The translations under genes were made by a program, and so were the position numbers. 36,500 bases of DNA from Clostridia bacterium (lineage in GTDB: Bacteria > Bacillota > Clostridia > Christensenellales > Borkfalkiaceae), in contig JAFTHU010000012.1 in NCBI GenBank assembly GCA_017457215.1, positions 1-36,500 on the forward strand, given 5' to 3'. The first letter of the stretch is position 1. Every line of letters begins with the position of its first letter. Of the stretch, positions 4,949-32,881 are shown one piece after another. The notes under the pieces were generated by a model. The model was not told the origin of the DNA and did not search any database. It saw only the letters and a list, made by a program, of their open reading frames with translations.

Positions 4949-7393
4949 TTAGTTTTCCTTCTTCTTGAAAACTGCTACTGCGCAAAGACCAAGTGCTGCA
5001 ATACCGCAAGCGATACCGCCTACAACACTGCCGCAACCCTTCTTGCTGCTGGATTCTTCTTCACTGGAAGAACTTGCAGGAGCAGAGGAAACTACTTCAT
5101 CTTCGGAAGAAACAACTTCGTCTTCGGAAGAAACAACTTCGTCTTCGGAGGAAACTACTTCGTCTTCGGAGGAAACAACTTCGTCTTCAGAAGAAACAAC
5201 TTCGTCTTCAGAGGAAACTTCTTCGGAAGATACTTCTTCGGAGCTTACTTCTTCGGAGCTTACTTCTTCAGAGGAAACTTCTTCAGAGGAAACTTCTTCG
5301 GAAGATACTTCTTCGGAGCTTACTTCTTCGGAGCTTACTTCTTCAGAGGAAACTTCTTCAGAGGAAACTTCTTCAGAGGAAACTTCTTCGGAGGAATTTT
5401 CTTCGGAGGAATCTTCTTCACCGGGAACTTCAGGTTCTTCGGATTCTACTTTTTCCGTTGCAAATTCAGTAAGGTAATTACCTGCATACGGCGTACCATA
5501 GTTTTGGTCGTATGTAACCACAAGTTCAAACTCATCCGTAATCTTAAGCGCTATAGCAGCATTTCCATCTTCCAACGTAAACAGATTGTCGCCGTCAACG
5601 TCTACAGCGTATACTACTACATAATCAGAGAAAATAGGTTCCCACGTCTCAAAATCCATACCAGTTTGAATAGATACCGTAACCGTTGCTTTGCCGTCTG
5701 CAAATACAACGCTACCGCATTTTTCACCGGACATATCGTCAAATACGTCATATTCGCCGCTTAAAATATCCGCAAGGCTAGGAGCTTCGTTTACCGTTAC
5801 GGTAACGCTTGCTTCCAATTCTTCAACAATCGTCGAATAGAGGTTGATCGTATACGTACCAACAGCCGTAGGCGCAAATACGATTGCATTGAATTCGTTA
5901 CCACCGTAGTTTACCGTGGTAGGCGTCCAGCAATCTACTTCGTCGCCGTTAGCGTCCAACACTTCGATTTCCGTGCTTGCGTCAGCCTTGGTGTTATCCG
6001 TCATACCGCCAATCACAACGGAAGTGCCAGCAAACATAGAATAGGTTTCACCCATTGCTGCTTGATAATAGTTGCCCCATTCTTCCGTATAAACAGCCGC
6101 GCCGAGCGTCTTAGGAAGAGGATTCTTTACCGTGATAACGGTGCTTGCTACTTCTACGTCATTCAAGCAAATAGAAACGTTATAAGTACCGGGTTTATAT
6201 GCAATAATTTTAATCGCATCCGTATAAGTTTCCGACGTATTGTAATCCGTCGCTTTCGTATAGAAATCACCAATCATTGCATAGGTGTTTACAGCGTCTT
6301 CAGGAAGAACAACGCTGATCTTGTTTGCTTTGGTGGACGCCGTTGCAGGAGCAACATCCGTTACGTTAAACCAAGCCGTTGCACCCGTTTCCATTTCCAA
6401 CGTTGCGGGAAGAGCGTTACCTTCTGCATCCGTAACCTTCATAGAAGTCATTCTGTAATCCATCATGTTGTTGACAACTTCACCTTCGGCTAATTGTTCA
6501 AACGCATAAACCGTCGTTTCATCAGGGTCTGTTTCGCCAACAAGATACCAATATTCATTCTCCGTATCCCATGCGTGCGAAGCAACGTATGTACCGGACC
6601 AATCTTCACCTGCAGGAACCGTTTCCGTCGTAGTCGTACCGTCTTCCCCTTCTACTTCTACTTCCGTCGTCAACCAATTACCTTCGTCGTCCTGCGTTTG
6701 GTTATTCCACCAGGTTTGCACTTGCATCTCACCACCTACAAGCATTCCGTTTTCATCGATACCGAAGCCTATAAACACACGATAATATAAAGTGCTTACG
6801 TAATCGAACGTCATTACAAACGAACCTTCGGAATTAACTGCAAAAACTTCGCCGTTCGTATTCATGTTTTCATCATTACTCATATATTCATACATACCAG
6901 CAATGAAGTTTTCCAAACCGTATGCTTCTACTGCATAACCAAGGCTAAACTGATAACCATTGAAAACGTCAGCGGTGAATTCATTTTCATTATAGGTCGG
7001 TTCGGTATCCGTGTTCCCCCAAAGCGCATAAATACTGCCATCGCTCATTTCCGAGAACCATTTCTCTTCCTTGTACTCGTATTCTGTGTCTACGCCCGTC
7101 GTTTCCGAATAGTGCATATATTTTTCGCCCTTTTCGTACGAAATCAACGTACTCGTTTCACCGCTTTCGTTGACTACAGTTTTGCCAACGTTAGCAATTT
7201 TAACTTTCGAACTGTTTTCTTTAATCGAAGCAAGTGCGTCTTCGAAAGTCATAGAAGCTACGTCCGCGTTCAGCACGGCAGCAGAGAGTTTCGTCTTTGC
7301 TTCGCCGGCATTTTGATTGCTACCTACAGCTGCGATTCCGCATACTGCAAAGCAAGCAATCGGCATTGAGAGATACTTTACAATTTTCTTCAT
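4949..7393 (-). CDS. Surface protein with Ser-Glu repeat stalk and Cys-containing C-terminal membrane anchor
   Basis: About 814 residues. The start is the ATG at 7391-7393 because AGGAGG (7401-7406) lies seven bases before it; an in-frame ATG at 7414 lies upstream of that site. A signal peptide (about 1-30) precedes an extracellular region of about 630 residues with Ig-like beta segments and no family I can name. Next comes a stalk of 12 units of Ser-Ser-Glu-Glu-Val and six units of Ser-Ser-Glu-Asp-Glu-Val-Val. The protein ends with Lys-Lys-Gly-Cys-Gly-Ser, a hydrophobic helix and Phe-Lys-Lys-Lys-Glu-Asn, laid out like a sorting signal or membrane anchor without LPXTG. It is the last gene of the MoxR/VWA operon, 38 bp after the lipoprotein gene with no promoter or terminator seen between them. 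It is probably the exposed end product of the system, but this is inference. Confidence 0.8.
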   Translation of the reverse strand: MKKIVKYLSMPIACFAVCGIAAVGSNQNAGEAKTKLSAAVLNADVASMTFEDALASIKENSSKVKIANVGKTVVNESGETSTLISYEKGEKYMHYSETTGVDTEYEYKEEKWFSEMSDGSIYALWGNTDTEPTYNENEFTADVFNGYQFSLGYAVEAYGLENFIAGMYEYMSNDENMNTNGEVFAVNSEGSFVMTFDYVSTLYYRVFIGFGIDENGMLVGGEMQVQTWWNNQTQDDEGNWLTTEVEVEGEDGTTTTETVPAGEDWSGTYVASHAWDTENEYWYLVGETDPDETTVYAFEQLAEGEVVNNMMDYRMTSMKVTDAEGNALPATLEMETGATAWFNVTDVAPATASTKANKISVVLPEDAVNTYAMIGDFYTKATDYNTSETYTDAIKIIAYKPGTYNVSICLNDVEVASTVITVKNPLPKTLGAAVYTEEWGNYYQAAMGETYSMFAGTSVVIGGMTDNTKADASTEIEVLDANGDEVDCWTPTTVNYGGNEFNAIVFAPTAVGTYTINLYSTIVEELEASVTVTVNEAPSLADILSGEYDVFDDMSGEKCGSVVFADGKATVTVSIQTGMDFETWEPIFSDYVVVYAVDVDGDNLFTLEDGNAAIALKITDEFELVVTYDQNYGTPYAGNYLTEFATEKVESEEPEVPGEEDSSEENSSEEVSSEEVSSEEVSSEEVSSEEVSSEEVSSEEVSSEEVSSEEVSSEEVSSEEVSSEEVSSEDEVVSSEDEVVSSEDEVVSSEDEVVSSEDEVVSSEDEVVSSAPASSSSEEESSSKKGCGSVVGGIACGIAALGLCAVAVFKKKEN
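5091..5395 (-). repeat. In-frame tandem repeats coding the Ser/Glu stalk
   Basis: Six 21-bp units (5091 to about 5215) code for Ser-Ser-Glu-Asp-Glu-Val-Val, and twelve 15-bp units (5216-5395) code for Ser-Ser-Glu-Glu-Val. Within the second set, 5216-5290 and 5291-5365 are identical 75-bp blocks of five units each, a recent higher-order duplication. The whole tract would be expected to change length by slippage. Confidence 0.95.
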
Positions 7394-7431
7394 AATAATG
7401 CCTCCTTTTTGCATTAATAAATTGATCTAAA

Positions 7432-18421: not shown

Positions 18422-21400
18422 TTATTTAAAATAACGAACGCCGCTTTCAAAAATCTTCATATCGAAGTTGCCTTCGACGTTTTTGTACAGATTTTCACCC
18501 GTACGTTCACTGTGCCCCATCTTACCAAACACTCTGCCGTCAGGCGAAGTGATACCTTCGATTGCCCACATAGAACCATTTGGATTGAAAGGCGAAACCA
18601 TCGTTGCTTTCCCATTCAAATCGGCATACTGCGTTGCAATTTGTCCGTTCCCTTTCATCTTTTCAAGTTCTGCAATCGGCGCAACGATTTTACCTTCGCC
18701 GTGCGATACGGGCACTTTGTAAACTTCGCCGACCTTGCAAGCGGACAGCCAAGGCGACAAATTGGAAGCCACACGCACGTCTACCACCGTCGATACGTGG
18801 CGCGAAATATTGTTAAACGTAAGGGTGGGCGAATTTGCCGTCATTTCGGTTACGTGTCCATACGGTACGAGACCAAGCTTGATAAGCGCTTGGAAACCAT
18901 TACAAATACCCAACGCCAAACCATCACGATTATTCAAAAGTTCTTCAAGCTGTTCTGCTATATACGGGTTACGGAAGGTCGTTGCAATAAATTTACCGCT
19001 ACCGTCCGGTTCGTCCCCACCGGAGAACCCACCTGGGAACGCTACGATATTTGCATTTTTAATTGCTTTTACGATACGTTCTACGCTCTCTTCGATATCC
19101 TGCGCCGTGCGGTTGCGAACGACAACCGTTTCCACTTCCGCCCCCGCAAGAACAAATTTCCGTGCGGTATCCAATTCGCAGTTCGTACCGGGGAACACGG
19201 GGATAAACACTCTGGGTTTTGCAATCTTCGTAGCAATATTACTGTATTTTTCACCCGAAGTATAATCGCAATCCTCCGCTTTTCCCTCAGCAGGTGCAGT
19301 CGTCGCAAAAACGCTTTCTAACGGACTGATATAAGCGCAAGCCGCCTTGTCCAAAGAAACGCTTTCCTCGCCGCATACGTATTTATCACCGCATACCTGC
19401 CCTACGTATTGCTTGTTCACGCAGCTACAAATTGCAGTTTCGTCTTTGAGCGAAATAATCAAATCGCCGTAGCCCTCGCTGTACAATTCGTCTGCGCTCA
19501 TTGCAAAATTTACACCCAAATCGTTACCGAGCGCCGACTTAATAACCGCCGCGCCAATACCGCCGTTTTCCACGACAGTCGCAAAACTAATATTGCCGTT
19601 TTCGATATTTTTGAAAATTTCGCCGTATATCTTTTTAAGCGCGTCAAAATCGGGTACGGAATTCTCGTCCTTGGGTACGGGAACGTAATAGAGCTTCTCC
19701 CCACCCTTGAGTACGTTGGTGATGAGCTTGCTTGCCTTGGCGGGCGCAAGCGCAAACGAGATGAGCGTAGGAGGTACGTGAATACTCTCGAACGTACCGC
19801 TCATGCTGTCTTTACCGCCAATTGCACCAAGTCCAAGCCCGATTTGCGCATATACTGCGCCAAGCAATGCGGACGCGGGAACGCCCCACACTTTTGCTTC
19901 GCCCGTCATTCTTTGGAAAAATTCTTGCAAAGTTAAACGGATATCGCTGTATTTTGCACCCGTAGCCACTACTTTAGACACAGAGGCAACGATAGAATAG
20001 ATTGCGCCAATAAAAGGGCTAGTTTCCATCAAATACGGAGAATACCCGTATGCTGATACCGTACATACGTCCGTTTCGCCGCCACAAATCTTTGCCGCCA
20101 TAGCAATAGCAGGCGTACGTTGCGTTTTGCCGCCCCAAGGCATATATACCGTTCTTGCGCCAATGGTCGAATCGAACGTTTCCGATAAACCTTTCTTTGC
20201 GCATACGTTCAAATCCGACAAAACTTTTTTGGTTTCTTCTGCAAAGTTCAAGCCCGATTTTTTATCAAACCAAGTGGTAACCTCGTCAGCAATTTCCACG
20301 TTTGCTTCCTGTTTTATGCCGTTGGTATTCAGGAATTCACGGGAAATATCCACGATTGCTTTGCCCTTAAGGAACATTTTCATTCTACCCGTGTCCGTAA
20401 CGACTGCTACGGGCGTAGCGGACAAATTTTCTTCCGCCGCAAGGGCGATAAACGATTCTACGTCTTTCTCGTCTACTACCACCGCCATACGTTCTTGCGA
20501 TTCGGAAATGGCAAGCTCTGTACCGTTCAAACCTTCATATTTTTTAGGCACTTTATCAAGGTCGATATTTAAACCGTCTGCAAGTTCGCCGATGGCAACG
20601 GATACACCGCCTGCACCGAAATCGTTACATTTCTTAATTTTACGGGTCGCTTCTTTGTTTAAGAACAAACGTTGCAATTTTCTTTCCGTCAACGCATTAC
20701 CCTTTTGTACTTCTGCACCGCAAGTTTCTACCGAGTGAGAATCGTGCGCCTTGGAAGAACCGGTTGCACCGCCGCACCCGTCGCGTCCCGTTTCACCGCC
20801 GAGCAAAATAATCACGTCGCCCGCCTTAGGTGTTTCACGGTAAACCATTTCCTTTCTTGCCCCGCCGACAACAAAGCCCGTTTCCAAACGTTTTGCTTTA
20901 TAGCCTTCGTGATATACTTCGTCAACGATACCGGTAGCCAAACCGATTTGGTTACCGTAAGAAGAGAAACCCGCCGCCGCACGTTGCGTGATAGCGCGTT
21001 GCGGCAATTTCCCCGCCAAAGTATCTTCCAATTTTTCTCTAGGGTCGGACGCACCCGTAATACGCATAGCTTGATATACGTACGTTCTACCGCTCAACGG
21101 GTCGCGGATTGCGCCGCCAAGACAGGTCGCCGCGCCGCCGAACGGTTCGATTTCCGTCGGGTGGTTGTGCGTTTCGTTTTTGAACATAACGAGGTATTGT
21201 TCTTTCTTTCCGTCGATTTCCGCTTCGATTTGAATAGAACAAGCGTTAATTTCTTCAGATATATCAAGGTTATCCAAAACCCCGTCTTTTTTCAATTTTT
21301 TCGCCGCTATCGTCGCCAAATCCATAAGGCAAGGATATTTGTCGGGACGTGCGCCGTTAAGTTCTTTATACAAATCCTCGTAAAGATGGTACGCTTTATG

Positions 21401-22123
21401 AATACCCTCGTTTTTGGAAGTGATTTTTACGTTTTTGAGTTCGGTTGCAAACGTTGTATGGCGGCAATGATCCGACCAATACGTATCGATTACTTTGAGC
21501 TCCGTTTCCGTGGGATTACGTTTTTCACTCTTGAAATAATCACGAACGAACGCCAAATCCAAAGCACTCATTGCAAAGCCAACGTTCTTATGATATGCCT
21601 TGATTTCGTCATCGGACATATCAATAAAACCGTCCACGTCCGCAACGGGAGCGCCTTCTACCGCCATACGAACGAGTGTTTCGGGTTTTTCAAAACCGAT
21701 TTCTTCGCTTTCTACGGGGTTGATAATATGTTTTTTAATCGCAGCGAGCTCTTCATCCGTTACGCCTTTCGCCATATAAATTTTGGCGCATTTAACAAGC
21801 GGACGAGCCTTTTTCGTCAACAGCTGAACGCATTGCGCCGCACTGTCTGCACGCTGATCGTACTGCCCCGTCAAATAACTTACGGCAAACGCCTTATAAC
21901 CTGCGGGAATTTCCAATTCTTCAAGATATACGTCGTCAACGGGAGGCTCGGAAAAAACGGAAGGAATTGCCGCTTTTAATTCTTCCTCGCTCAAACCCTC
22001 TACGTCATAGCGAAGTATCAAACGGAAATCTTCCGTCGTAATATTAAGGAGCGTTTTGATGTCAGCCGCCTCTTTTCTTGCTTGTACGTTATCTTTCTTT
22101 TCTACAAAAATTCTGTAAATCAT
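18422..22123 (-). CDS. purL: Phosphoribosylformylglycinamidine synthase, single-chain
   Basis: About 1233 residues. It converts FGAR to FGAM with glutamine and ATP, the fourth step of purine synthesis. The N-terminus is the PurS-like domain, and the two AIR-synthase-like halves carry the Asn-Glu-Thr-His-Asn-His-Pro-Thr-Glu block around residue 320. The C-terminus is a glutaminase with the nucleophile Cys1074 in Leu-Gly-Ile-Cys-Asn-Gly-Phe, and a His/Glu pair in Met-Gly-His-Ser-Glu-Arg near the end. The fused form replaces separate PurS, PurL and PurQ, as in one clostridial clade of the family. I chose the ATG at 22121-22123 (GAGG six bases before) over the GTG at 22135. It lies 12 bp after purD. 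Confidence 0.96.
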   Translation of the reverse strand: MIYRIFVEKKDNVQARKEAADIKTLLNITTEDFRLILRYDVEGLSEEELKAAIPSVFSEPPVDDVYLEELEIPAGYKAFAVSYLTGQYDQRADSAAQCVQLLTKKARPLVKCAKIYMAKGVTDEELAAIKKHIINPVESEEIGFEKPETLVRMAVEGAPVADVDGFIDMSDDEIKAYHKNVGFAMSALDLAFVRDYFKSEKRNPTETELKVIDTYWSDHCRHTTFATELKNVKITSKNEGIHKAYHLYEDLYKELNGARPDKYPCLMDLATIAAKKLKKDGVLDNLDISEEINACSIQIEAEIDGKKEQYLVMFKNETHNHPTEIEPFGGAATCLGGAIRDPLSGRTYVYQAMRITGASDPREKLEDTLAGKLPQRAITQRAAAGFSSYGNQIGLATGIVDEVYHEGYKAKRLETGFVVGGARKEMVYRETPKAGDVIILLGGETGRDGCGGATGSSKAHDSHSVETCGAEVQKGNALTERKLQRLFLNKEATRKIKKCNDFGAGGVSVAIGELADGLNIDLDKVPKKYEGLNGTELAISESQERMAVVVDEKDVESFIALAAEENLSATPVAVVTDTGRMKMFLKGKAIVDISREFLNTNGIKQEANVEIADEVTTWFDKKSGLNFAEETKKVLSDLNVCAKKGLSETFDSTIGARTVYMPWGGKTQRTPAIAMAAKICGGETDVCTVSAYGYSPYLMETSPFIGAIYSIVASVSKVVATGAKYSDIRLTLQEFFQRMTGEAKVWGVPASALLGAVYAQIGLGLGAIGGKDSMSGTFESIHVPPTLISFALAPAKASKLITNVLKGGEKLYYVPVPKDENSVPDFDALKKIYGEIFKNIENGNISFATVVENGGIGAAVIKSALGNDLGVNFAMSADELYSEGYGDLIISLKDETAICSCVNKQYVGQVCGDKYVCGEESVSLDKAACAYISPLESVFATTAPAEGKAEDCDYTSGEKYSNIATKIAKPRVFIPVFPGTNCELDTARKFVLAGAEVETVVVRNRTAQDIEESVERIVKAIKNANIVAFPGGFSGGDEPDGSGKFIATTFRNPYIAEQLEELLNNRDGLALGICNGFQALIKLGLVPYGHVTEMTANSPTLTFNNISRHVSTVVDVRVASNLSPWLSACKVGEVYKVPVSHGEGKIVAPIAELEKMKGNGQIATQYADLNGKATMVSPFNPNGSMWAIEGITSPDGRVFGKMGHSERTGENLYKNVEGNFDMKIFESGVRYFK

Positions 22124-22135
22124 ATCTATCCTCAC

Positions 22136-23410
22136 TTACTCTTTTACAATATCTCTGTACTTGATACCGATATCTTTTCTGTAATACATGCCGTCGAAAT
22201 GTATTTTTTCAGCATTTGCATACACCTTTTGACGAGCCGCTTCAATATCTACCCCCCTGGCAACAACGCCAAGTACTCTGCCGCCGCTGGTAACGATTTT
22301 GCCGTCCTTTTCCGCCGTACCTGCATGGTATATGGTAACGTCTTTATCCAAATCGCCAAAAGTGATTTCTTTACCCTTTTCATACTTTTCGGGATAACCG
22401 CCGCTTGCGAGTACCAAGCATACGCAAGCTCCGTCTTCCCACTCGATAGTTACTTCGTCCAAACGTTCGTCTACCACCGCTTCGAAAATATCCATCAAAT
22501 CAGTTTTCAACATAGGCAAAATTACCTGCGTTTCGGGATCGCCGAAACGGGAGTTGTATTCAATTACTTTCATACCGTCTTTCGTCTTCATCAAACCGAA
22601 ATACAGCACACCTTTAAAGGTTCTACCCTCCGCGTTCATAGCCGCTACGGTAGGGAGCATAATCTTTTCCATTACTTCTTTCGCTGTTTTCTCGCCGTAA
22701 AAAGGCGCAGGTGAAAACGTGCCCATACCGCCCGTGTTCAACCCCTCGTCGTTATCCAAAGCTCTTTTATGATCGCAACTAGTAATCATCGGTTTAATGG
22801 TTTTTCCGTCCGTAAACGCAAGAGCGGAAACTTCCGGTCCAACCAAAAACTCTTCTACGACCACTTTGCTGCCTGCAGAACCAAATTTTTGGTCGAGCAT
22901 CATTTCTTTTAAGCCATCCAAAGCTTCCTCTCTTGTCATGCAAATCAACACGCCTTTTCCAAGCGCCAACCCGTCCGCTTTTAATACAACGGGAATATCG
23001 CAGGTTTCTACGTATTTTTTCGCCGCTTCATAGTCTGCAAACGTTTCATATTTTGCGGTAGGAATATTATATTTTTTCATCAATTCCTTGGAAAACGCTT
23101 TACTTGCCTCAATAACCGCCGCATTTTTATTCGGCCCAAAAGCGCGATGCCCGCGACTTTGCAATTCGTCCACCAACCCCAAAGCCAAAGGGTCGTCGGG
23201 GGTTACTACCGTAAAATCGATATCGCCCTTTTGATCTATCCAATCGCCAACCGCTTTCACGTCGCAATAATCCACGTCAACAAGCTCTGCCATTTCCGCA
23301 ATACCTGCATTGCCTTTCATTGCATAAATTTTATTTACTCTCGGCGATTTTTTTAACGCCGCGATGACCGCGTGTTCTCTGCCGCCGTTTCCGATTACCA
23401 AAACGTTCAT
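22136..23410 (-). CDS. purD: Phosphoribosylamine-glycine ligase
   Basis: 424 residues, the normal length. It joins glycine to phosphoribosylamine using ATP to give GAR. The N-terminal domain starts with Gly-Asn-Gly-Gly-Arg-Glu-His-Ala. The ATP-grasp region has Val-Leu-Lys-Ala-Asp-Gly-Leu-Ala-Leu-Gly-Lys-Gly, then Thr-Gly-Gly-Met-Gly-Thr, and Asn-Ser-Arg-Phe-Gly-Asp-Pro-Glu-Thr-Gln for metal and ATP binding. GGAGA precedes the ATG. It lies 18 bp after purN and 12 bp before purL. The preceding PurF must supply unstable phosphoribosylamine to it, so close synthesis of the two fits. All motifs appear intact. Confidence 0.97.
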   Translation of the reverse strand: MNVLVIGNGGREHAVIAALKKSPRVNKIYAMKGNAGIAEMAELVDVDYCDVKAVGDWIDQKGDIDFTVVTPDDPLALGLVDELQSRGHRAFGPNKNAAVIEASKAFSKELMKKYNIPTAKYETFADYEAAKKYVETCDIPVVLKADGLALGKGVLICMTREEALDGLKEMMLDQKFGSAGSKVVVEEFLVGPEVSALAFTDGKTIKPMITSCDHKRALDNDEGLNTGGMGTFSPAPFYGEKTAKEVMEKIMLPTVAAMNAEGRTFKGVLYFGLMKTKDGMKVIEYNSRFGDPETQVILPMLKTDLMDIFEAVVDERLDEVTIEWEDGACVCLVLASGGYPEKYEKGKEITFGDLDKDVTIYHAGTAEKDGKIVTSGGRVLGVVARGVDIEAARQKVYANAEKIHFDGMYYRKDIGIKYRDIVKE

Positions 23411-23428
23411 TTTTCGTTCTCCGTTTTT

Positions 23429-24043
23429 TTAATGAATGCGTACTTTTCGCCCGCATTTTTCAATTTTTCCTTCGCATAACAATTTCACACATAAGGGCAA
23501 CATTTCATGTTCCTCTTTCAAAATACGTGCTTGTAATGTTTCGGGAGTGTCGTTTGCCATCACAGGTACGCTGCGTTGCATAATAATTGCCCCGCCGTCT
23601 ACGTCTGCTTCTACAAAATGCACCGTTGCACCGCTTAATTTTACACCGTATTCAATCGCCGCTTTATGTACATGCAAGCCGTAATAACCCATACCGCAAA
23701 AGGATGGAATCAGCGAGGGATGAATGTTAATCACCCCATCCTCAAACTCTTTTATAAAGCTTGCGGGAACGACCAACAACCACCCAGCAAGTACGATATA
23801 TTCCACCCCCGCAGCCTTTAACACCTTGGCTACGTCCGCATAAAAAGCGTCTTTGTCTGCATATTTTTCCTTATCGTATACAAGCGTATGGATACCGTGT
23901 TTTTGCGCACGACTAATTGCGCCGATTGCGGGTTTGGATGCTACTAAATATTCAATTTTGCAAAATTGTTCACGTTCATTAGCGTCGATTACAGATTGAA
24001 AATCCGTGCCGCCGCCCGATGCAAATACCGCTATTTTCTTCAT
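23429..24043 (-). CDS. purN: Phosphoribosylglycinamide formyltransferase (PurN type)
   Basis: 204 residues. It transfers the formyl group of 10-formyltetrahydrofolate to GAR, making FGAR. The phosphate loop Ala-Ser-Gly-Gly-Gly is at 8-12. The catalytic set Asn106, His108 (in Asn-Ile-His-Pro-Ser-Leu) and Asp149 (in Asp-Val-Asp-Gly-Gly) matches the well-studied E. coli residues Asn106, His108 and Asp144. It starts only three bases after the purM stop codon and has no clear ribosome binding site, so translation is probably coupled to purM. Confidence 0.95.
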   Translation of the reverse strand: MKKIAVFASGGGTDFQSVIDANEREQFCKIEYLVASKPAIGAISRAQKHGIHTLVYDKEKYADKDAFYADVAKVLKAAGVEYIVLAGWLLVVPASFIKEFEDGVINIHPSLIPSFCGMGYYGLHVHKAAIEYGVKLSGATVHFVEADVDGGAIIMQRSVPVMANDTPETLQARILKEEHEMLPLCVKLLCEGKIEKCGRKVRIH

Positions 24044-24046
24044 AGT

Positions 24047-25075
24047 TTATTTTAAAATAACCTTCTTGTCCCCTGCAACAGCTTTACCGATTACCACTAC
24101 GTCTTCGCCCGTTGCTTTCAACGACTCCATCGTCGCGTCCACGTCTTTGGGATCTACGCAAACTATCATACCGATACCCATATTAAAGGTATTGTAAATC
24201 TGTTCGTCGGTAATACCCGCACGCTTTTGCATTACTTTGAATACGGGGGGAACTTCGTAAGAATTCTTATCGATTTCTGCCGATACGTTTTCAGGTAAAA
24301 TTCTGGGAATGTTTTCGATAAATCCACCGCCAGTGATGTGTGCGATACCCTTTACTTGTACTTTTTCAATAAGCGTCAAAATACTCTTTACATAAATACG
24401 TGTGGGTTTCAACAACACCTCCGCCGCCGTTGCGCCAAGCTCTTCGTCATACGCCTCCAACGCCGCTTTATCGCTATCGCCGAAAAGTTTACGAACCAAG
24501 GAATAACCGTTGGAATGTACCCCCGTTGATTTCAAACCAATCAACACGTCGCCGGGCTTAATGTCTTTACCATTGATAACTTTTTTCTTGTCCACAATAC
24601 CTACGGCAAAACCTGCAAGGTCGTATTCCCCATCGGGATAGAACCCAGGCATTTCTGCCGTTTCGCCACCGATAAGCGCACAACCTGCCTGACGGCAACC
24701 GTCTGCAATACCCTTTACTACGTCTGCTTCCGCTTCTGGATACAATCTGCCGCAAGCATAGTAATCCAAGAAAAATAAAGGTTTCGCGCCTTGGCATACA
24801 ATATCGTTTACACACATTGCTACTGCATCAATACCTATCGTATCGTGTTTTTGAAGTAAGAAAGCGTATTTAAGCTTCGTACCAACCCCGTCCGTGCCTG
24901 CGACAAGAACGGGCTCTTCCATCTTTTCGCCCGCAATCGAATAGAACCCGCCAAACGAACCCAAATCGCCGATTACGTTTGCGTCATAAGTAGATTTTAC
25001 GTGTTTTTTCATTAATTCAACAGCTTTATAACCTCTCGTTACGTCTACGCCGCTGTCCTTGTAAGAAATAGCCAT
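24047..25075 (-). CDS. purM: Phosphoribosylformylglycinamidine cyclo-ligase (AIR synthase)
   Basis: 342 residues, the usual length. It closes the imidazole ring, turning FGAM into AIR with ATP. Typical blocks are [10 protein letters not shown] near residue 60 and Asp-Ala-Val-Ala-Met-Cys-Val-Asn-Asp. Further on are Gly-Gly-Glu-Thr-Ala-Glu-Met-Pro-Gly and the C-terminal His-Ile-Thr-Gly-Gly-Gly-Phe. GGAGA lies about 11 bases before the ATG. It lies between purF (17-bp gap) and purN (3-bp gap). Confidence 0.97.
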
Positions 25076-25092: not shown

Positions 25093-26505
25093 TTATTTTT
25101 TATTTTCAGAAATTTTATAATCGTACTTATTTTCGCCCGACGAACTAGGCGTTTCCGTGGGATATTTTCCGTCGAAACATGCCGCACAATACCCTTTGCA
25201 TTTGCCGCTTTCCGCTAATTTGAAAACGTCTTCAACAGAAAGGAATCCAACCGAATCCGCCCCGAATATACGCGCCATTTCCTCGGGAGTGTGATTACAA
25301 GCAATCAACACTTCGCGAGAGGCAATGTCCGTTCCGTAATAGCAAGGATTGAGGAATTGAGGCGAAGAAGAACGCACGTGAATTTCCGTAGCGCCTGCAT
25401 CCCGCAAAAGTTTCACAACACGAGCCATCGTCGTACCGCGAACAATGGAATCGTCTACAAGAATTACTCGTTTCCCCTTTACCGTTTCTACAACGGGATT
25501 AAGTTTGATACGAACTTTGTCTTCACGTAAATTTTGACCGGGGTCAATAAACGTTCTGCCGATATATTTATTTTTAATAAGTCCTAAACCGTAAGGAATA
25601 CCCGATTCTTCCGCATAACCGATTGCCGCGTCGATACCCGAATCGGGGGCACCGATAACAACGTCAGCATCTACTCCGCAGGAACGGGCAAGAAACATAC
25701 CCGCACGTTTTCTAGCCAAATGTACCGAACAATCGGAAATTACCGAGTCGGGACGGGCAGTATACAAATATTCGAACACGCAAAGTCTTTCCGGTTGTTT
25801 GTTGCAATGTTCTTTTATAGCGCGAAGACCTTCTTTGGTGAACACGAGGATCTCACCCGGTTCAATATCTCGAATATGCGCCGCGCCTACCGCATTAAGC
25901 GCACACGTTTCGCTGGAAATTACATATTCACCATCCTCCCGTTTGCCGTAACAAATCGGATGCACACCGTTCACATCCCGCGCCGCAATCATTTTTTGCG
26001 GAGACATAACAATCAAAGAAAATCCGCCTTTCAATTTGGAAAGCGCTTTGGTTACAGCCTCTTCTATCGAATGAGAAGTGATACGCTCTTTTATGATGAC
26101 CGCCGAAATAATCTCTGCATCGTTGCCGGTATGAAATATCAAACCTTGCATTTCCATTTCTGCTTTCAGTTCGGCGCTGTTTACCAATTTACCGTCCATG
26201 GCAATTGCCATTCTACCCTTGCTGTGGTTGACCACTATGGGTTCGGAATTGATGCGGTCTTTCGTATCCAATGTACCGTAACGCACGTTCCCAAGTGCCA
26301 TTTGTCCCAAACCAAGATTTTTCATTACCGACGGCGTGAACACGTCGTTGACCAATCCCGAATCTTTATAAGTATGAAAAACGCCGTCGTCGTTCACAAC
26401 GATACCGCTGGACGCTTGTCCACGATGTTGCAACGCATACAACCCGTAATACACGCTTGACGCCACATTTTCCGTTTTCGTTCCAAAAATCCCAAATACT
26501 GCCAT
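25093..26505 (-). CDS. purF: Amidophosphoribosyltransferase lacking the glutaminase nucleophile Cys
   Basis: 470 residues. PurF makes phosphoribosylamine from PRPP and glutamine. The phosphoribosyltransferase half is canonical: PRPP loop at 346-359 ([13 protein letters not shown]), and Cys242, Cys388, Cys440 and Cys443 at the positions of the 4Fe-4S ligands in the Bacillus-type enzyme. The N-terminal glutaminase half keeps His-Arg-Gly-Gln (27-30), Arg75 and Asp129. However, the protein begins Met-Ala-Val-Phe-Gly-Ile, where the family has Cys-Gly-Val-Phe-Gly-Ile, and the usual oxyanion Asn-Gly is Asp104-Gly105. A longer start is excluded by an in-frame TGA two codons upstream, and GGAGG supports this ATG. 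It may use ammonia directly or a partner glutaminase. Confidence 0.93.
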
Positions 26506-26554
26506 ATATCAGTCCTCCGTTGGCTCTATACGAATATTTCGCAACTTGTTTCGC

Positions 26555-27043
26555 TTAAAGCAACGCTTGCAACGCCGCGTCGTCCGCATTGATTTTGTCT
26601 TGCATTGCCTTCTTATAATCAGCCAGTTGCGCGGAAATTTCAGGATACTTTATGCCGAGAATCTGCAACGCCAAAAGTCCTGCATTTTCACCGCCGTTTA
26701 CCCCTACGGTCGCGACGGGAATCCCCGAAGGCATTTGCACGATGGAAAGCAAGCTGTCTAAACCACCCATCATATCAGTTTTTACGGGCAGCCCAATTAC
26801 GGGCAACGTCGTAATCGCGGCGATTACTCCGCCAAGATGCGCCGCTTTTCCCGCCGCACAAATTAAAACCTCGATACCGCGCTCTTTTGCAGTCGACGCA
26901 AACTCGTGTGCTTCGTCCGGCGTACGGTGTGCGGATATAACGCGAACCTCCGTTTCCACTCCAAATTTTTTCAACACGGAAACCGCGGGCTTTACCACGT
27001 CAAAATCCGATTTACTACCCATCAAAATACCAACTTTACCCAT
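26555..27043 (-). CDS. purE: N5-carboxyaminoimidazole ribonucleotide mutase (class I PurE)
   Basis: 162 residues. It moves the carboxyl group of N5-CAIR to give CAIR. Class I signatures are Met-Gly-Ser-Lys-Ser-Asp at 8-13 (Ser10 and Asp13 bind the substrate) and Ser-Ala-His-Arg-Thr-Pro with the catalytic His39. The Leu-Asp-Ser-Leu-Leu-Ser-Ile-Val-Gln-Met-Pro block completes the set. A class I enzyme normally needs PurK to make N5-CAIR, and no purK lies next to it, so it must be elsewhere or absent. GAGAGGA precedes the ATG. It is the first enzyme gene of the operon, behind an attenuator-like leader. Confidence 0.96.
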   Translation of the reverse strand: MGKVGILMGSKSDFDVVKPAVSVLKKFGVETEVRVISAHRTPDEAHEFASTAKERGIEVLICAAGKAAHLGGVIAAITTLPVIGLPVKTDMMGGLDSLLSIVQMPSGIPVATVGVNGGENAGLLALQILGIKYPEISAQLADYKKAMQDKINADDAALQALL

Positions 27044-27503: not shown

Positions 27504-28361
27504 TTACTCTTTTACAAACGTATCTCCAATCTCTTGATAACCCGCTTTTGCAAGTAAATCTTTCATTGCAGCAACGGCAGCATCAAAGGATTCCGTAGAC
27601 GTTTTATACGTAAATTTATGCTTCATTACCGTTTTATCAATATGAGAATATCCCTCAAATACAGCCAAATGCGGCTCTAATGTAAAGGTCTTTTCCCCGT
27701 CAATGCTACTTAAAATATCCCCGATTTTGCCATCGCCTTGGCCAGCAGGCACAAGTTGGTCTGTTTCAGCAATAACGTCTTTTACGTGATAGTAATCAAT
27801 TTTCCCCGCAAAGATTCTCTGCGTATCCTCTGCCTTTTCGCCTACTTGCAAATAGTTGGCAGGATCGTAAATATGACACAATCCCTCTACGTTTTCCATA
27901 ATATCCAAGACGCGCGAAGCGATATCGCCATAAATATCTTTTTCGTTTTCATGATGCAATTTTACGCCGTATTCCTTTGCAATTGCTACCATTTTCCTTA
28001 AACGAGAAATTACTTCGTCACGGCTGTCGTACGCTTCAAAAAAGCTGAACATACGAATTTTATCCGCGCCCAAAATATTCGCAAGCGAACAGGTATGACG
28101 CAAAAGTTTTTCCACTTCTTCAAAACTGTCTTGAATTTTCGATTTTCCAATCGGCGAACCAATCGACCAAACCTGAATACCGTTGGCGTCTAATTTTTCA
28201 CGAATCTCTTTCGCTTCTTCTTCCGTCAATGCCGTAACGTTTTTTCCGTCCACACCGCGCATTTCCATATATGGAATGTTATTACGCTTCAACGCCTCAA
28301 TTTGGCCCTCTAAAGAACTTGCCGCTTCATCACTGAATGCACAAAGTTTTACTTTAACCAT
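27504..28361 (-). CDS. Sugar phosphate isomerase/epimerase family TIM-barrel protein
   Basis: 285 residues, the usual length of this xylose-isomerase-like barrel family. The expected metal ligands are visible at strand ends: Glu138 (in His-His-Glu-Asn-Glu), Asp166 (in Tyr-Asp-Pro-Ala-Asn-Tyr), His192 (in His-Val-Lys-Asp) and Glu229 (in Leu-Glu-Pro-His). Val-Pro-Ala-Gly-Gln-Gly-Asp-Gly follows the His loop, as in sugar epimerases of the family. No signal peptide, so cytoplasmic. GGGGAGG lies seven bases before the ATG. It has its own promoter and closes the carbohydrate group on this strand. The substrate cannot be fixed; related proteins act on keto-sugars and inositol derivatives. Confidence 0.87.
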   Translation of the reverse strand: MVKVKLCAFSDEAASSLEGQIEALKRNNIPYMEMRGVDGKNVTALTEEEAKEIREKLDANGIQVWSIGSPIGKSKIQDSFEEVEKLLRHTCSLANILGADKIRMFSFFEAYDSRDEVISRLRKMVAIAKEYGVKLHHENEKDIYGDIASRVLDIMENVEGLCHIYDPANYLQVGEKAEDTQRIFAGKIDYYHVKDVIAETDQLVPAGQGDGKIGDILSSIDGEKTFTLEPHLAVFEGYSHIDKTVMKHKFTYKTSTESFDAAVAAMKDLLAKAGYQEIGDTFVKE

Positions 28362-28424
28362 TATAAATCCTCCCCAATAACTCTTTTCCTGTGCTCCGCT
28401 TTAAAAAAGCACATTTACTCTTTT

Positions 28425-28452
28425 ATTATATCATATTTTTTGCACTTGTAAA
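28425..28452 (-). promoter_or_regulatory. Promoter of the sugar isomerase gene
   Basis: On the minus strand TTTACA (28447-28452) and TATAAT (28425-28430) are 16 bp apart, with TGA before the -10 box (extended -10). The leader would be about 57 nt. Confidence 0.75.
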
Positions 28453-28466
28453 GATTTTTGCAAAAA

Positions 28467-30032
28467 TTACAATCCATAATTGTTAAAACGATCTTCGTAA
28501 AGATAAGGTTTTTCAGACAAACGATTTAACAACATAACGGGAATAGCCTCTACGTGATATCTGCCGTATTCTTCCACTAAAATCAAAATTCGGTTATGGG
28601 CAGAAATCTTTTCAGGTGCTGTAAGCACGATTTCCGTCGGTAAACAGTTAAAGGTGTTTTCCGTAATACTCATCCAGAACGGAACGTATACGTCAAACTC
28701 CTCCGCGTTCGCCGTCCAGCCCTCCGGCATAATCAACGATACTTTGATGTTATGCGGTTGTTGCCCAAATGCTTTCAAACGGTTTTGGAACATAATCGAA
28801 ATGCGTTTTTGTTCACCAGCAACCGCATAAGGCCCGCCGTGAACGGTAACCAACGCATACACCGCACCGCAATTTTTCACAATTGTATTCGGCGTTTTAA
28901 GAGAAAGCAAGGACGCCGCCAGCTCTTCCGATTCTTCACTCTGTCCATAAGGCAAAGCAAAGTATGTTATTTCCTCTGCGGAAACTTCCGTAGCCTCGTC
29001 TTTCACAAAAACAGGCGTTTTCGCAAAATGCCCTTTCATTTGTAAGGTAACGGTAGGCGCAAGCGTAGTAACCTTTTCCGTGAGTTTAGTACAAGTGCCC
29101 ACAAACGGGAATGCCGTTCCTTGGTTTATACTGCACGTAACGATTTTATCCCCGATATATTCCTCCCAATCTTGAGAAATACCCGCCGTGCCTTTCATAA
29201 TACCCAAAATAGATCCAACCGTACCGGCGGTACAATCAGTATCGTCGCCGCAGTTCACCGCAAGCAACATAGATTTTTTGAAATCGCCCTCGCCATACAA
29301 AATACCCAGAATAGCGTAGCCCACGTTAGAGGGCGCGGAGAACCAACCGTCGCCGATATCGTAATTCTCTTTTAAAATTGCATCACGCGCATCCATAGCA
29401 GGAACACCGTTATCATAGCAATCCAACAAAAGACGAATCGTGCGCGCCATTCTGCTTTCATAAGGAATTTTCGCAAGCCCAATTTCAATCAATTTACGAA
29501 TATCCGAAACCACAAACGCAGCACTCTCCAATGCAGCAACGAACATTGCCGCATACGTACCTTCGCCGTTGCCGTGATCCACCTTTGCGTCCTCGATTGC
29601 ATATCTTGCCGCCATATCGGGTTGTGCAGGAAATAACGTCGCCCAAATCTCGGTGCGAATCCACGCGCCGTTAGAGTGCTTTAAACGCCAGTTGTTTTCC
29701 GTTTCGCCCGTAAGCGGCGGAATAATACCCAGCTCCATATTGCGCCGCGCAATGGCATATTCCCCTGCGTACATGGTAATATAAGACAGCCAATAATCCC
29801 CCAGAACTTCTGCCGTGAGATGTTTCGGACCTTCTATTTCCATTGCGTGTAACCAAACGAGTTGCAAATCCAAATCGTCGTTGGGAAGGGGTTCGCCTTT
29901 TGCCGTTGAAAACCCCGTAATATTCAATTTTTTACGCACGCCTTCATAGGGGCCCCCCAACGTGCCGCCTATGTTTTTACCAATCCAGCAAGCTTTTACT
30001 TTATCTTTGTAGGATGCGTAATTTAATTTCAT
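28467..30032 (-). CDS. ADP-ribosylglycohydrolase family protein with extra C-terminal domain
   Basis: 521 residues. Residues 1 to about 310 are the all-helical ADP-ribosylglycohydrolase fold: Gly-Gly-Thr-Leu-Gly-Gly-Pro-Tyr-Glu near the start, acidic Asn-Asp-Asp-Leu-Asp at 51-55, and Asn-Cys-Gly-Asp-Asp-Thr-Asp at 260-266. These provide the two-magnesium site of DraG/ARH enzymes. The remaining 200 residues are beta-rich and unassigned; DraG itself is about 300 residues. Family members remove ADP-ribose from proteins, but many clostridial ones lie in sugar gene clusters, so an N- or O-glycoside substrate is as likely. It lies between an AGE epimerase gene and a sugar isomerase gene and has its own promoter. 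The ribosome binding site is mediocre. Confidence 0.85.
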   Translation of the reverse strand: MKLNYASYKDKVKACWIGKNIGGTLGGPYEGVRKKLNITGFSTAKGEPLPNDDLDLQLVWLHAMEIEGPKHLTAEVLGDYWLSYITMYAGEYAIARRNMELGIIPPLTGETENNWRLKHSNGAWIRTEIWATLFPAQPDMAARYAIEDAKVDHGNGEGTYAAMFVAALESAAFVVSDIRKLIEIGLAKIPYESRMARTIRLLLDCYDNGVPAMDARDAILKENYDIGDGWFSAPSNVGYAILGILYGEGDFKKSMLLAVNCGDDTDCTAGTVGSILGIMKGTAGISQDWEEYIGDKIVTCSINQGTAFPFVGTCTKLTEKVTTLAPTVTLQMKGHFAKTPVFVKDEATEVSAEEITYFALPYGQSEESEELAASLLSLKTPNTIVKNCGAVYALVTVHGGPYAVAGEQKRISIMFQNRLKAFGQQPHNIKVSLIMPEGWTANAEEFDVYVPFWMSITENTFNCLPTEIVLTAPEKISAHNRILILVEEYGRYHVEAIPVMLLNRLSEKPYLYEDRFNNYGL

Positions 30033-30085
30033 ACACTCAACCGCCTTTATTATTTCTATTATATCGCTTCTTTAAAGCCGTATTT

Positions 30086-30114
30086 ATTATAACACAAATT
30101 TTTTTATGTGTCAT
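30086..30114 (-). promoter_or_regulatory. Promoter of the ADP-ribosylglycohydrolase family gene
   Basis: On the minus strand ATGACA (30109-30114) and TATAAT (30086-30091) are 17 bp apart, with TGT before the -10 box (extended -10). The leader would be about 47 nt. No terminator was found for the epimerase gene upstream, so read-through is also possible. Confidence 0.78.
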
Positions 30115-30160
30115 TACATCAAAATTGCAGATATATGCTCTAAAATTTCATTTAAGCCTA

Positions 30161-31372
30161 TTAAAGCAATGCGGGCAGGTCTTTTTCCCAGTTTTCTAAA
30201 ATTTGGTCGCATAAAATCAAACAACGCAATAAATGATACGGTCCTTTCCACAGCGAACCTTTTTGTTCGTGCGAAACCGTACCGTCGCGATGCAAATAGC
30301 CGTACCATTCGCCAAATTTTTCATCAGGGAAATGCGAGAATATGTACGCGTGCAACTTTTCATACCATGCCGCATATTTTTCATCACCCGTAATTTTATA
30401 CGCAACGAGCGTCGCAATCAAAGCTTCGTTATGTACCCACCAGAGTTTCATATCATGCTCCAACTGTTCGCAGGGTCTGCCGTACAAATCGCGGAAATAA
30501 TAAATTCCGCCGTATTCCTGATCCCAACCAATATCCAATGACCAATCCAAAATATTAAGCGCTTGTTTTAAAAGTTTTTCATTGCCCGTTTGCACAGCCG
30601 CATTCATCAAGAACCAAGAATTTTCAATAGAATGTCCGGGATTGATGGTACGTCCCACGGGATTATCCAAAATACTTCCGTCGACGTATACCGTTTCCAA
30701 CACGCACTTGTGTTCTTCCTTATAATGCAAACGCATCATATCATCTACAATTTTCGCAATAATCTCGTCGTAATACGCATAATTTCCCGTAATACGTCGC
30801 AAAGTCTGTGCCGAGCTTACCAAAACCATCGGATTTGTATTAGAATGCAAAGGACGAATTTCTGCGTTTTCTTTCGGCGTAATTTTGAACGGGTCTGCCT
30901 TTGGATCGCAATACATTGCCCACATAAAATCAAAATATTTTACCGCTAAATCCAAATCTTCTTGATTTTTGCGGAGCAAATAATATTCTGCAAAACCTAC
31001 CGTCAAGAAACTTTCCGAAAAGAAATAACGGCGTTTGCGCAAAGGTTGCCCGTCTTGCGTTACCGTGAAAAACATTCTGCCGTCGGTATCGATACAATGT
31101 TCCTTGATAAATTTTGCCCCTGCATCCGCCGCACTTGCCCATTCTTCTTTCACGCCGTATACGTTACAAAGTTTGGAAAAAGTCCAAAGACATCTGCCTT
31201 GAAACCAAACGCTCTTATCGTTATTGTAAGATTTCCCCTCACGGTCTACGCTGGTAATAAAACCGCCGTATTTCTTGTCTATCAAATCGGATTGCATCCA
31301 AAACGGCTCTACGTCGTTAAAAAGCGTATCGTGATAAAATTTGTTTAATTCTTTAATTCTTGCAAGTTCCAC
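30161..31372 (-). CDS. N-acylglucosamine 2-epimerase (AGE) family protein
   Basis: 403 residues, the family length, an (alpha/alpha)6 barrel. The two catalytic histidines of AGE are at His247 (Asn-Pro-Gly-His-Ser-Ile-Glu) and His380 (Gly-Pro-Tyr-His), close to the positions 248 and 382 known for the porcine enzyme. His314 and Glu316 (Trp-Trp-Val-His-Asn-Glu) also belong to the pocket. Family members epimerise N-acetylglucosamine to N-acetylmannosamine, or isomerise mannose, cellobiose and other sugars. The start is GTG with AAGGAG eight bases before it, overlapping the DUF4127 stop region. The gene is 15 bp after DUF4127, so the two are co-transcribed. Which sugar it acts on cannot be told. 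Confidence 0.9.
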   Translation of the reverse strand: MELARIKELNKFYHDTLFNDVEPFWMQSDLIDKKYGGFITSVDREGKSYNNDKSVWFQGRCLWTFSKLCNVYGVKEEWASAADAGAKFIKEHCIDTDGRMFFTVTQDGQPLRKRRYFFSESFLTVGFAEYYLLRKNQEDLDLAVKYFDFMWAMYCDPKADPFKITPKENAEIRPLHSNTNPMVLVSSAQTLRRITGNYAYYDEIIAKIVDDMMRLHYKEEHKCVLETVYVDGSILDNPVGRTINPGHSIENSWFLMNAAVQTGNEKLLKQALNILDWSLDIGWDQEYGGIYYFRDLYGRPCEQLEHDMKLWWVHNEALIATLVAYKITGDEKYAAWYEKLHAYIFSHFPDEKFGEWYGYLHRDGTVSHEQKGSLWKGPYHLLRCLILCDQILENWEKDLPALL

Positions 31373-31387
31373 TTTTATTTCTCCTTA

Positions 31388-32881
31388 TTACTTTTCTTCC
31401 ATAATTAAACCGACTTCAAACATTCTGCGCCAAGGCAAATAACACTCGGCAATTTTATATTTGTCTGCGACTTCGGGATAATTTGCGTACATATAATCGT
31501 TTAACAATTCTTCAATACGCGCGCTTACTTCCCCGCGCTGTACCTTTGTATCTTCATATTTGTATCCCATCTTTTCCACTTCATAATCCCAGACGAGTTT
31601 TCGAACATATGCACAATATCCGATATCTTCGTACATACGTTCCGCCGTGAATTTGCGGTGCGTGGGCGTATCACCGTAAAAATAACGCAGAATCGCTTGA
31701 CAAATAACCGTTCCCAAAGTATTTGACGAAGTATTCCAACCTGCGTACCCCCACAAATTTAAGAACCCTATTTGCGAAGTGATTCTTTCGCAAAGACGCA
31801 CGTCTGCACCGTTACAATAAGCGATATCGGCAACGGCGACCCCTTTTCCTGCCTTTACAGCCGCTTCCATCCGTTCTACAAACGCAAACAAATCCCGTTC
31901 GTAATACTGTCTGCCGTGCGGTTGTGAAATATTTTGCACTTTTCCTACGGGAAGATTGCAAAAGAGCAAGATATCCGCCTCATCCTCGTTCTCGCACTGC
32001 ACGCCGCCTGCGCTGGCAATTTGTGCGGCAATACTCTTATAAACCGCCCGATCCTCGTATAACGGAATAACGTTTTTACATTCTTCCTTGGGGTATATCG
32101 GGCAAATTTTAGGCGCATAGCCTTCCATATCCGCTACACAGCGCGCAAGCAAAGACATACCACCCTCGTCCGCGCCCGGATAAATCGCTACGTTCAAATT
32201 TTTTTCCGCAATCATCAAACGCACCTTTGCCTGATCCATCGCCGTAAATCCGCACGGGTTGGAATCGTCTTGCAAAATTACAAACGAATCAAACACAGAG
32301 CCAACCAAATCCAAGGTTTTCATGAACAACGAAATATTACATTCTCTACGGGTCAAATAATCGTCTAAATAGGGCTCAACGACCTTTAAGCGAGCCTTTT
32401 CGGCAAGATATTCGGCTTGCGTAATTTTCCCATCCTTAAACTTATGCTCGTTTTGTCCGTATTCAAATATCTCTAAACCGCAAATACCGTAATAATCGGG
32501 CTCTTCGTCCGCGTCCGAATAGCAGGGACAACGCATCACAAGGGAAAAACCGTATATCGTCATCTTGGGGTTACGGTCTTTGAGTTGCTTCAAAACAGTT
32601 AACCGCTCTTCCAAGGTTTCACGGGAAAGATTGTGCAAGCGTGAGGGAATAATCCCACCGTACAAAAGTGTGTCTATTGCAATAACAAGATAATCGGCAT
32701 CCATACATTCCCGCTCTAAAAACGCTTTGATTTTATCATAGTCCGCGGGGATTTTTTTATCGCCCATTTCTTCCAAGGTAGGACGAACCAATCGGAAATT
32801 TTTATTTTCTTCGCTTAAAAAACCGACAAACGAATAATTACAAGGTCTTTCATCCAATGGCAAATATACAATCTTTTTCAT
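31388..32881 (-). CDS. DUF4127 family protein
   Basis: 497 residues. It starts Pro-Leu-Asp-Glu-Arg-Pro-Cys-Asn (8-15) and has Ile-Asp-Thr-Leu-Leu-Tyr-Gly-Gly-Ile-Ile-Pro-Ser-Arg around 70-82. These are the signature stretches of DUF4127, a soluble Firmicutes family of unknown activity that often lies in sugar-use clusters. A cluster of Asp/Glu/Cys residues around 115-130 could be catalytic. GGTGG precedes the ATG. It is 10 bp after the esterase gene and 15 bp before the epimerase gene, in one operon. The conserved acidic residues would suit a hydrolase, but that is a guess. Confidence 0.85.
   Translation of the reverse strand: MKKIVYLPLDERPCNYSFVGFLSEENKNFRLVRPTLEEMGDKKIPADYDKIKAFLERECMDADYLVIAIDTLLYGGIIPSRLHNLSRETLEERLTVLKQLKDRNPKMTIYGFSLVMRCPCYSDADEEPDYYGICGLEIFEYGQNEHKFKDGKITQAEYLAEKARLKVVEPYLDDYLTRRECNISLFMKTLDLVGSVFDSFVILQDDSNPCGFTAMDQAKVRLMIAEKNLNVAIYPGADEGGMSLLARCVADMEGYAPKICPIYPKEECKNVIPLYEDRAVYKSIAAQIASAGGVQCENEDEADILLFCNLPVGKVQNISQPHGRQYYERDLFAFVERMEAAVKAGKGVAVADIAYCNGADVRLCERITSQIGFLNLWGYAGWNTSSNTLGTVICQAILRYFYGDTPTHRKFTAERMYEDIGYCAYVRKLVWDYEVEKMGYKYEDTKVQRGEVSARIEELLNDYMYANYPEVADKYKIAECYLPWRRMFEVGLIMEEK

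Follow-up and report, generated by a model that had tools for sequence, protein, structure and literature searches.

A clade of Clostridia in which the operon-borne PurF lacks its catalytic cysteine and may use free ammonia

The PurF encoded in the DNA studied here (a stretch of 36,500 nucleotides from a Clostridia bacterium of the Borkfalkiaceae, contig JAFTHU010000012.1, which we call the window) has no catalytic cysteine. We consider it probable, at roughly 0.78, that this protein serves its lineage as the housekeeping PurF and that it would make phosphoribosylamine from PRPP and free ammonia. The best explanation we can offer is that such an ammonia-dependent PurF would be part of a clade-wide shift from glutamine to ammonia in three nucleotide enzymes, namely PurF, CarA and GuaA.

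The purF gene lies at 25093..26505 on the minus strand (the preliminary description of this DNA named no strand) and encodes a PRPP amidotransferase of 470 aa. Its product scores 458 bits against TIGR01134, above the curated cut-off of 350, and matches B. subtilis PurF (1ao0) along nearly the full length with an E value of 5e-126. The protein begins MAVFGIFG where Cys-bearing relatives have EECGVFG (Glu-Glu-Cys-Gly-Val-Phe-Gly), and codons 1-2 (26500..26505, minus) thus give Met-Ala in place of the catalytic Cys1-Gly2. Residue 1 (Met) is aligned with Cys, residue 2 (Ala) with Gly and Asp104 with Asn in 31/31 Cys-bearing rows from the genus and the family; C1M and G2A occur together in all 44 MAV-start rows, versus Cys-Gly in all 31 Cys-bearing ones. 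On the coding strand, the start region reads GGAGG-ACTGATAT-ATG. It consists of a ribosome binding site (26514..26518, minus) 8 bases ahead of the ATG and an in-frame TGA (26509..26511, minus) two codons 5' of the start, and because of this TGA a longer purF start is impossible.

The Ntn/class II glutaminase domain (residues 1-235; 25801..26505, minus; PF13537 61.7 bits, PF13522 45.6 bits) is predicted to be dead. Apart from its first two residues, the PurF alignment gives Ala for the canonical Glu at residue 31 (26413..26415), Asn for His at residue 73 (26287..26289), Glu for Gln at residue 88 (26242..26244) and Asp for the oxyanion-hole Asn at residue 104 (26194..26196, all minus). Going by PurF structures, we take C1, G2, E31, H73, Q88 and N104 to be placed at the glutamine site. 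The phosphoribosyltransferase domain (residues 236-450; 25156..25800, minus; PF00156 35.6 bits) holds an intact PRPP loop of 13 residues (25429..25467, minus), as well as Cys440 and Cys443 (25177..25188, minus), which together with Cys242 and Cys388 presumably form an Fe-S site. The preliminary description had claimed a PurF without its N-terminal catalytic cysteine and without room for a longer start, with the oxyanion Asn replaced by Asp104, and with Arg75, Asp129, the PRPP loop and all four Fe-S cysteines intact; each of these statements stood up, and D351, D352 and the four cysteines proved invariant in 81/81 rows. No Rfam match (riboswitch or other) was found in the window at the gathering threshold.

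A full-length purF with the MAV start is carried by 44/57 genomes of the genus, and it is thus not a sequencing slip. Six genus genomes have a Cys-bearing PurF (G001, G002, G003, G054, G055 and G056), one has only a C-terminal PurF piece (G028), another only a distant PurF paralogue (G034), and in five of the 57 searched no PurF was found (G022, G023, G024, G027 and G032). G050 holds both kinds of PurF, the Cys-bearing copy lying on a contig of 4,430 bases, and G052 has an extra short C-terminal piece besides its Cys-less PurF. These two genomes and G053, all among the 44, also carry Cys-bearing or full-length PurF, CarA or GuaA on other contigs; composition hints at contamination for G053 alone (tetranucleotide r 0.60), its signal being ambiguous for G050 and G052. 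All or most of the genomes are MAGs, that of the window being 73% complete. In a set of named genomes, for which 80 of 91 relatives were kept, 51/80 loci are Cys-less and 29/80 have the Cys (L154, in which EECG is present, belongs to the latter group). The 51 named loci and the 44 genus genomes must not be summed, as many are identical organisms. All named Cys-less records are titled MAG; 40/51 titles name a host site, always the cecum, colon or rectum, in roe deer, sheep, goat, water deer or yak, and the other 11 (SIG isolates) give no host.

In a quick, midpoint-rooted PurF tree of 95 rows, the 52 Cys-less rows, that of the window included, form one clade on a branch with an SH-aLRT of 100. 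The preliminary description had proposed to see whether the Cys is lost across the clade and whether a second purF with Cys exists in the same genome, and had named close relatives with the Cys as a possible refutation. The loss does span a single clade, Cys-bearing relatives stand only outside it, and a second PurF was not found in the window's 73%-complete genome. That the Cys-less purF is more than chance or assembly error we regard as confirmed at the level of sequence.

The 81 aligned rows comprise 10 basal and 42 derived Cys-less rows, the window among them, and 29 Cys-bearing rows. Met at the Cys position and Glu at residue 88 are found in 52/52 Cys-less rows, all 10 basal ones included, while residue 88 is Gln in 29/29 Cys rows. 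Residue 2 is Ala in 42/42 derived rows, Gly or Ser in five basal rows each, and Gly in 29/29 Cys rows. Residue 31 is Ala in 42/42 derived rows and Glu in 10/10 basal and 28/29 Cys rows; residue 73 is Asn in 42/42 derived rows and His in 10/10 basal and 29/29 Cys rows. At residue 104, Asp is present in 41/42 derived rows and Asn in 29/29 Cys rows, the basal rows being mixed (N5 Q3 E1 A1). Arg75 is kept in the derived rows, and Asp129 mostly so (D36 E6). Judged from this alignment, the loss is stepwise: Cys and Q88 went first, as seen in the basal rows, and G2A, E31A, H73N and N104D were fixed later. The pair of Cys1 and oxyanion Asn-Gly that marks a working class II (Ntn) glutaminase is absent from the derived rows.

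Codon comparison indicates that the dead glutaminase half is still under purifying selection. For derived rows, the median pairwise dN/dS is 0.099 in the glutaminase half (residues 5-230) and 0.068 in the phosphoribosyl half (240-450); these values, drawn from 284 pairs with usable dS, are rough, as dS is near saturation (median 1.6). Columns conserved in the Cys rows are replaced in derived rows at 9/101 positions of the glutaminase half, C1, G2, E31, H73, Q88 and N104 among them, versus 4/104 in the other half, where three of the four are small/hydrophobic exchanges (V286A, I363V, I414F). This concentration of replaced columns in the PurF glutaminase half is not significant (Fisher p 0.16). 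Decay is unlikely given the 52-row clade, the intact phosphoribosyl half and a dN/dS of about 0.10 in the dead half, which agrees with the preliminary view that this is not a decaying gene.

The operon order in the window is purE-purF-purM-purN-purD-purL, all on the minus strand: purE at 26555..27043 (TIGR01162, 206.3 bits), purM at 24047..25075 (TIGR00878, 444.3 bits), purN at 23429..24043 (TIGR00639, 191.2 bits), purD at 22136..23410 (TIGR00877, 527.9 bits) and purL at 18422..22135 (TIGR01857, 1652.3 bits), the last being of the large form with a C-terminal glutaminase that apparently works (GICNGFQ, MGHSER). The operon had been called complete; a pur operon is indeed present, but purC and purH, found at this place in relatives, are missing. 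More precisely, purH (an AICAR transformylase type, to judge from its position and its resemblance to locus L132) is absent from the pur operon of derived rows and purC from that of the window (intervals 23410-23429 and 26505-26555). Among the 51 named Cys-less loci, purF is flanked on one side by purE (34) or purC (17) and on the other by purM in 50/50 loci holding that flank, no gap exceeding 73 bases, as in Cys-bearing relatives that share this gene order. All 51 loci have ordinary pur genes directly beside purF, with no candidate feeder glutaminase among them. Elsewhere in the window, the list of open reading frames has a large protein that looks secreted and carries long SSEE-type repeats towards its C terminus (4949-7414, minus), and beside the pur operon lie a xylose isomerase-like TIM barrel, an ADP-ribosylglycohydrolase, a GlcNAc 2-epimerase and a DUF4127 protein (27504-32881, minus).

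CarA is altered in the same genomes. Its nucleophile elbow has Cys in 0/36 readable Cys-less genomes (Gly in 33, Asp in 2, Glu in 1) and its catalytic His is present in 0/35; both residues are kept in 6/6 Cys-bearing genus genomes. Eight of the 44 Cys-less genomes gave no CarA or none that could be read; the window's own, 73% complete, is one of them, and there it was not found. The closest evidence to the window comes from G005, whose PurF is 88% identical and whose CarA has FGIGLGHQ for the FGICLGHQ of the E. coli chain, without the class I Cys and His expected of a glutamine-hydrolysing enzyme. Among 30 family loci read, both residues are present in 24/24 of the Cys type, and the six without both are the clade's own. 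Of the CarA columns invariant in eight Cys copies, 11/68 are replaced in the GATase domain versus 0/44 in the N-terminal domain (the Cys-less set has 41 rows, with G034 and G007 left out and G042 entered as two pieces). The CarA tree requires two losses, one for a clade of 40 rows and one for G034. The G034 protein (L241) belongs to another CarA subfamily and lost its catalytic Cys and His independently; this genome also has a GuaA frame of 331 aa, and its sole PurF is of the MGGFFG type discussed below.

A GuaA match was found in 40/44 Cys-less genomes. All 38 complete lineage copies are short frames of 326-352 aa without a glutaminase domain, and two lineage copies are cut by contig ends; G050 and G052 have an additional long copy. 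In the Cys-bearing genus genomes the GuaA frames measure 518-593 aa in 5/6, G002 giving no match. The GuaA of the window's genome, 326 aa long, matches positions 195-512 of a GuaA model of 512 positions and has no N-terminal class I GATase domain. A class I GATase of about 202 aa was considered as a split GuaA subunit and rejected: the copy in the window's genome, its sole PF00117 match, is HisH (TIGR01855, 231 bits), and three further ones that were read look HisH-like. The ATPPase part of GMP synthetase alone uses ammonia (PMC10526850).

Glutamine is still made and used elsewhere in these cells, since PurL, HisH and GlmS keep their Cys and glutamine synthetase-type matches occur in 40/44 Cys-less genomes; a total loss of glutamine use is ruled out on the same grounds. 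PurL retains GICNGFQ in 37/37 Cys-less loci holding that part (H-x-E was seen in 36), the four HisH-like proteins that were read (G000, G005, G006, G015) retain GICLGMQ or GVCLGMQ, and GlmS, present in 6/44 Cys-less genomes, retains MCGIVG in 6/6. The search for glutaminases covered two families, PF13522 (class II) and PF00117 (class I). In 36/44 Cys-less genomes PF13522 matches nothing but PurF, and a free-standing class II partner was rejected on this account. In the other eight, the extra matches are GlmS (G019, G020, G026, G037, G049, G050), the Cys-bearing PurF of G050, and two frames in G052 (537 and 371 aa) and one in G042 (399 aa), which we take by their length to be AsnB- and GOGAT-like; an AsnB-length frame occurs among the 44 only in G052. 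AsnB and GlmS are missing outside the clade as well: in G001 and G056, too, PF13522 matches PurF alone. Class I matches, read in five genomes, are dead CarA and HisH-like proteins, with some in two genomes that we take to be hydrolase-like. The ammonia-using AsnA is present in 35/44 Cys-less and also in 2/6 Cys-bearing genus genomes. An ammonium transporter (Amt) was found in 1/44 (G052); NH3 can diffuse. NagB-type matches, sought as a substitute for GlmS, occur in 51/57 genomes and prove nothing, being present whatever the kind of PurF. As a separate observation, CTP synthase (PF06418) was not found in 42/44 Cys-less genomes, being present in G052 and G053; the 42 include 7 of the 9 Cys-less genomes with a completeness of 90% or more and a contamination of 5% or less.

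In the mechanism we propose, PurF would bind PRPP and its loop would close, and ammonia from the ammonia-rich hindgut would attack C1 of PRPP, yielding the phosphoribosylamine that PurD uses. What the dead domain would still provide is the fold, contacts and a passage to the second active site. High ammonia would make glutamine hydrolysis dispensable, whereupon glutaminases that are fused and structurally needed (PurF, CarA) may have been inactivated and a separable one (GuaA) deleted. The inference of ammonia-dependent synthesis draws on two reports: replacing Cys1 of E. coli PurF by Ala or Ser leaves its use of ammonia in place and its glutamine activity undetectable (PMC3261824), and ruminal ammonia was 6.4 and 9.1 mM in ewes in one study, which concerns the rumen and not the hindgut (PMC12448400). 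The preliminary suggestion of a natural PurF that is ammonia-dependent or fed by a glutaminase is thus supported, ammonia being favoured over a feeder subunit by the lack of any other class II match in 36/44 genomes and by pur-gene neighbours in 51/51 loci, but its scope was too narrow, CarA and GuaA being affected as well. One might go further and suppose that a clade of ruminant-hindgut Clostridia has shifted PurF, carbamoyl phosphate synthetase and GMP synthetase to free ammonia and has rebuilt the PurF pocket as an entry for NH4+. Q88E in 52/52 Cys-less rows and N104D in 41/42 derived rows add two acidic residues that could hold NH4+; we put this fuller version forward tentatively, as one that may well be wrong.

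An alternative that we find unlikely is that a separate glutaminase protein supplies PurF in trans, using the dead domain as its dock and handing ammonia over there. Conservation of that domain would suit a docking surface, and HisH and PurL retain their glutaminase motifs. Against it, 36/44 Cys-less genomes have no class II match besides PurF, the class I matches read in five genomes are dead CarA, HisH-like or hydrolase-like, and in the named loci purF has purE or purC and purM as its direct neighbours. Still less probable, in our judgement, is that the protein is no longer the PurF of the pathway, being dead or regulatory, and that phosphoribosylamine is made otherwise, e.g. from ribose-5-phosphate and ammonia without an enzyme. 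Such non-enzymatic formation is described for Salmonella if ammonia suffices (PMC3485032), and purH, together with purC in the window, has gone from the operon. On the other hand, the Asp pair of the PRPP loop and the four cysteines are invariant, selection is stronger on the phosphoribosyl half than on the dead half, the operon is conserved, and no other PurF was found in the window's genome.

That another residue has taken over as nucleophile, so that glutamine is still cut, would be in keeping with the retention of Arg75 and mostly of Asp129 in derived rows. It is very improbable all the same, as Met1-Ala2 is invariant in these rows, an N-terminal Cys, Ser or Thr is nowhere fixed, and the oxyanion Asn has been replaced, as have the conserved His, Glu and Gln. 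As for an artefact of assembly or start site that masks a Cys, Cys starts were missed in 3/58 archaeal purF annotations (PMC3261824). The Cys codon just 5' of the ATG in locus L124 is one residue out of register, and ATG, GTG and TTG are all missing between it and the upstream stop. With the TGA upstream in the window and an identical start in 44 genus genomes and 41 derived named loci (the organisms overlap), a start-site artefact is refuted at the sequence level, and we give the artefact reading as a whole hardly any weight.

Ammonia-dependent use of PRPP by the window's PurF would have precedents in the Cys-less archaeal PurF' and in vertebrate CPS1. Canonical PurF (TIGR01134; B. subtilis 1ao0, E. 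coli 1ecb) shares the PRPP loop, the four cysteines and the place in the operon, but the window's PurF is without catalytic Cys1 and propeptide and its glutaminase residues are replaced. The crenarchaeal PurF' (PMC3261824) is likewise a PurF-like protein near pur genes whose N-terminal Cys is missing (often Ala or Val); it accompanies a Cys-bearing PurF, however, as an extra copy. Here, the Cys-less protein is the single PurF found in the window's genome, G050 alone among the 44 having a second full one, and, unlike PurF', it arose inside a bacterial clade. Vertebrate CPS1 (PMC4655335) is an ammonia-dependent carbamoyl phosphate synthetase that keeps a dead glutaminase-like domain (with Ser for the catalytic Cys in human). 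It differs from PurF in being another enzyme with a class I glutaminase and a need for N-acetylglutamate; the Cys-less bacterial CarA is its bacterial parallel. Single-domain NAD synthetase uses ammonia and its family is divided between glutamine and ammonia donors, ammonia use being inferred as ancestral there (PMC3376133), whereas the PurF tree suggests an ancestral use of glutamine that was lost. In the literature searched (mainly non-subscription, and among the matches listed) we found nothing on a sole bacterial Cys-less PurF or on a joint loss in CarA and GuaA, and the combination of a sole operon-borne Cys-less PurF, a dead CarA and a GuaA without glutaminase looks new.

The same bacterial family has a PurF paralogue of the MGGFFG type, also without an N-terminal Cys, with an intact PRPP loop and near pur genes. 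It is not close kin of the window's PurF: the two are 27-30% identical over the aligned part, and the paralogue has other pocket residues and forms a separate lineage. MGGFFG-type loci, whose proteins start with MGGFFG or a similar sequence, are L294-L303, L305 and L073. For 12 genomes (G034, G058, G063, G069, G073, G074, G080, G087, G089, G101, G116 and G137) this type is the best PurF-type match listed and the only one, with purH nearby in 11/12 and a divergent purC in 9/12. A CarA match is missing, among the matches listed, in eight of these MGGFFG-only genomes (G058, G063, G069, G073, G074, G080, G087, G089). At L085-L088 the MGGFFG-type PurF stands in tandem with a Cys-bearing one.

A reason commonly given for the channelling of ammonia by glutamine amidotransferases is that free ammonia is usually scarce. 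If the proposed shift is real, the steps of PurF, CarA and GuaA in this clade would depend on environmental ammonia and would be insensitive to glutamine analogues. A clade that has given up such channelling in three nucleotide enzymes and keeps it in PurL and HisH would be a natural experiment on the need for channels, and for PurF the basal rows supply the order of the steps. There is also a consequence for annotation, as proteins with a dead or lost glutaminase can still pass the cut-offs of "glutamine-hydrolyzing" models, which is the case for the CarA of G005 (TIGR01368) and the GuaA of the window's genome (NF000848).
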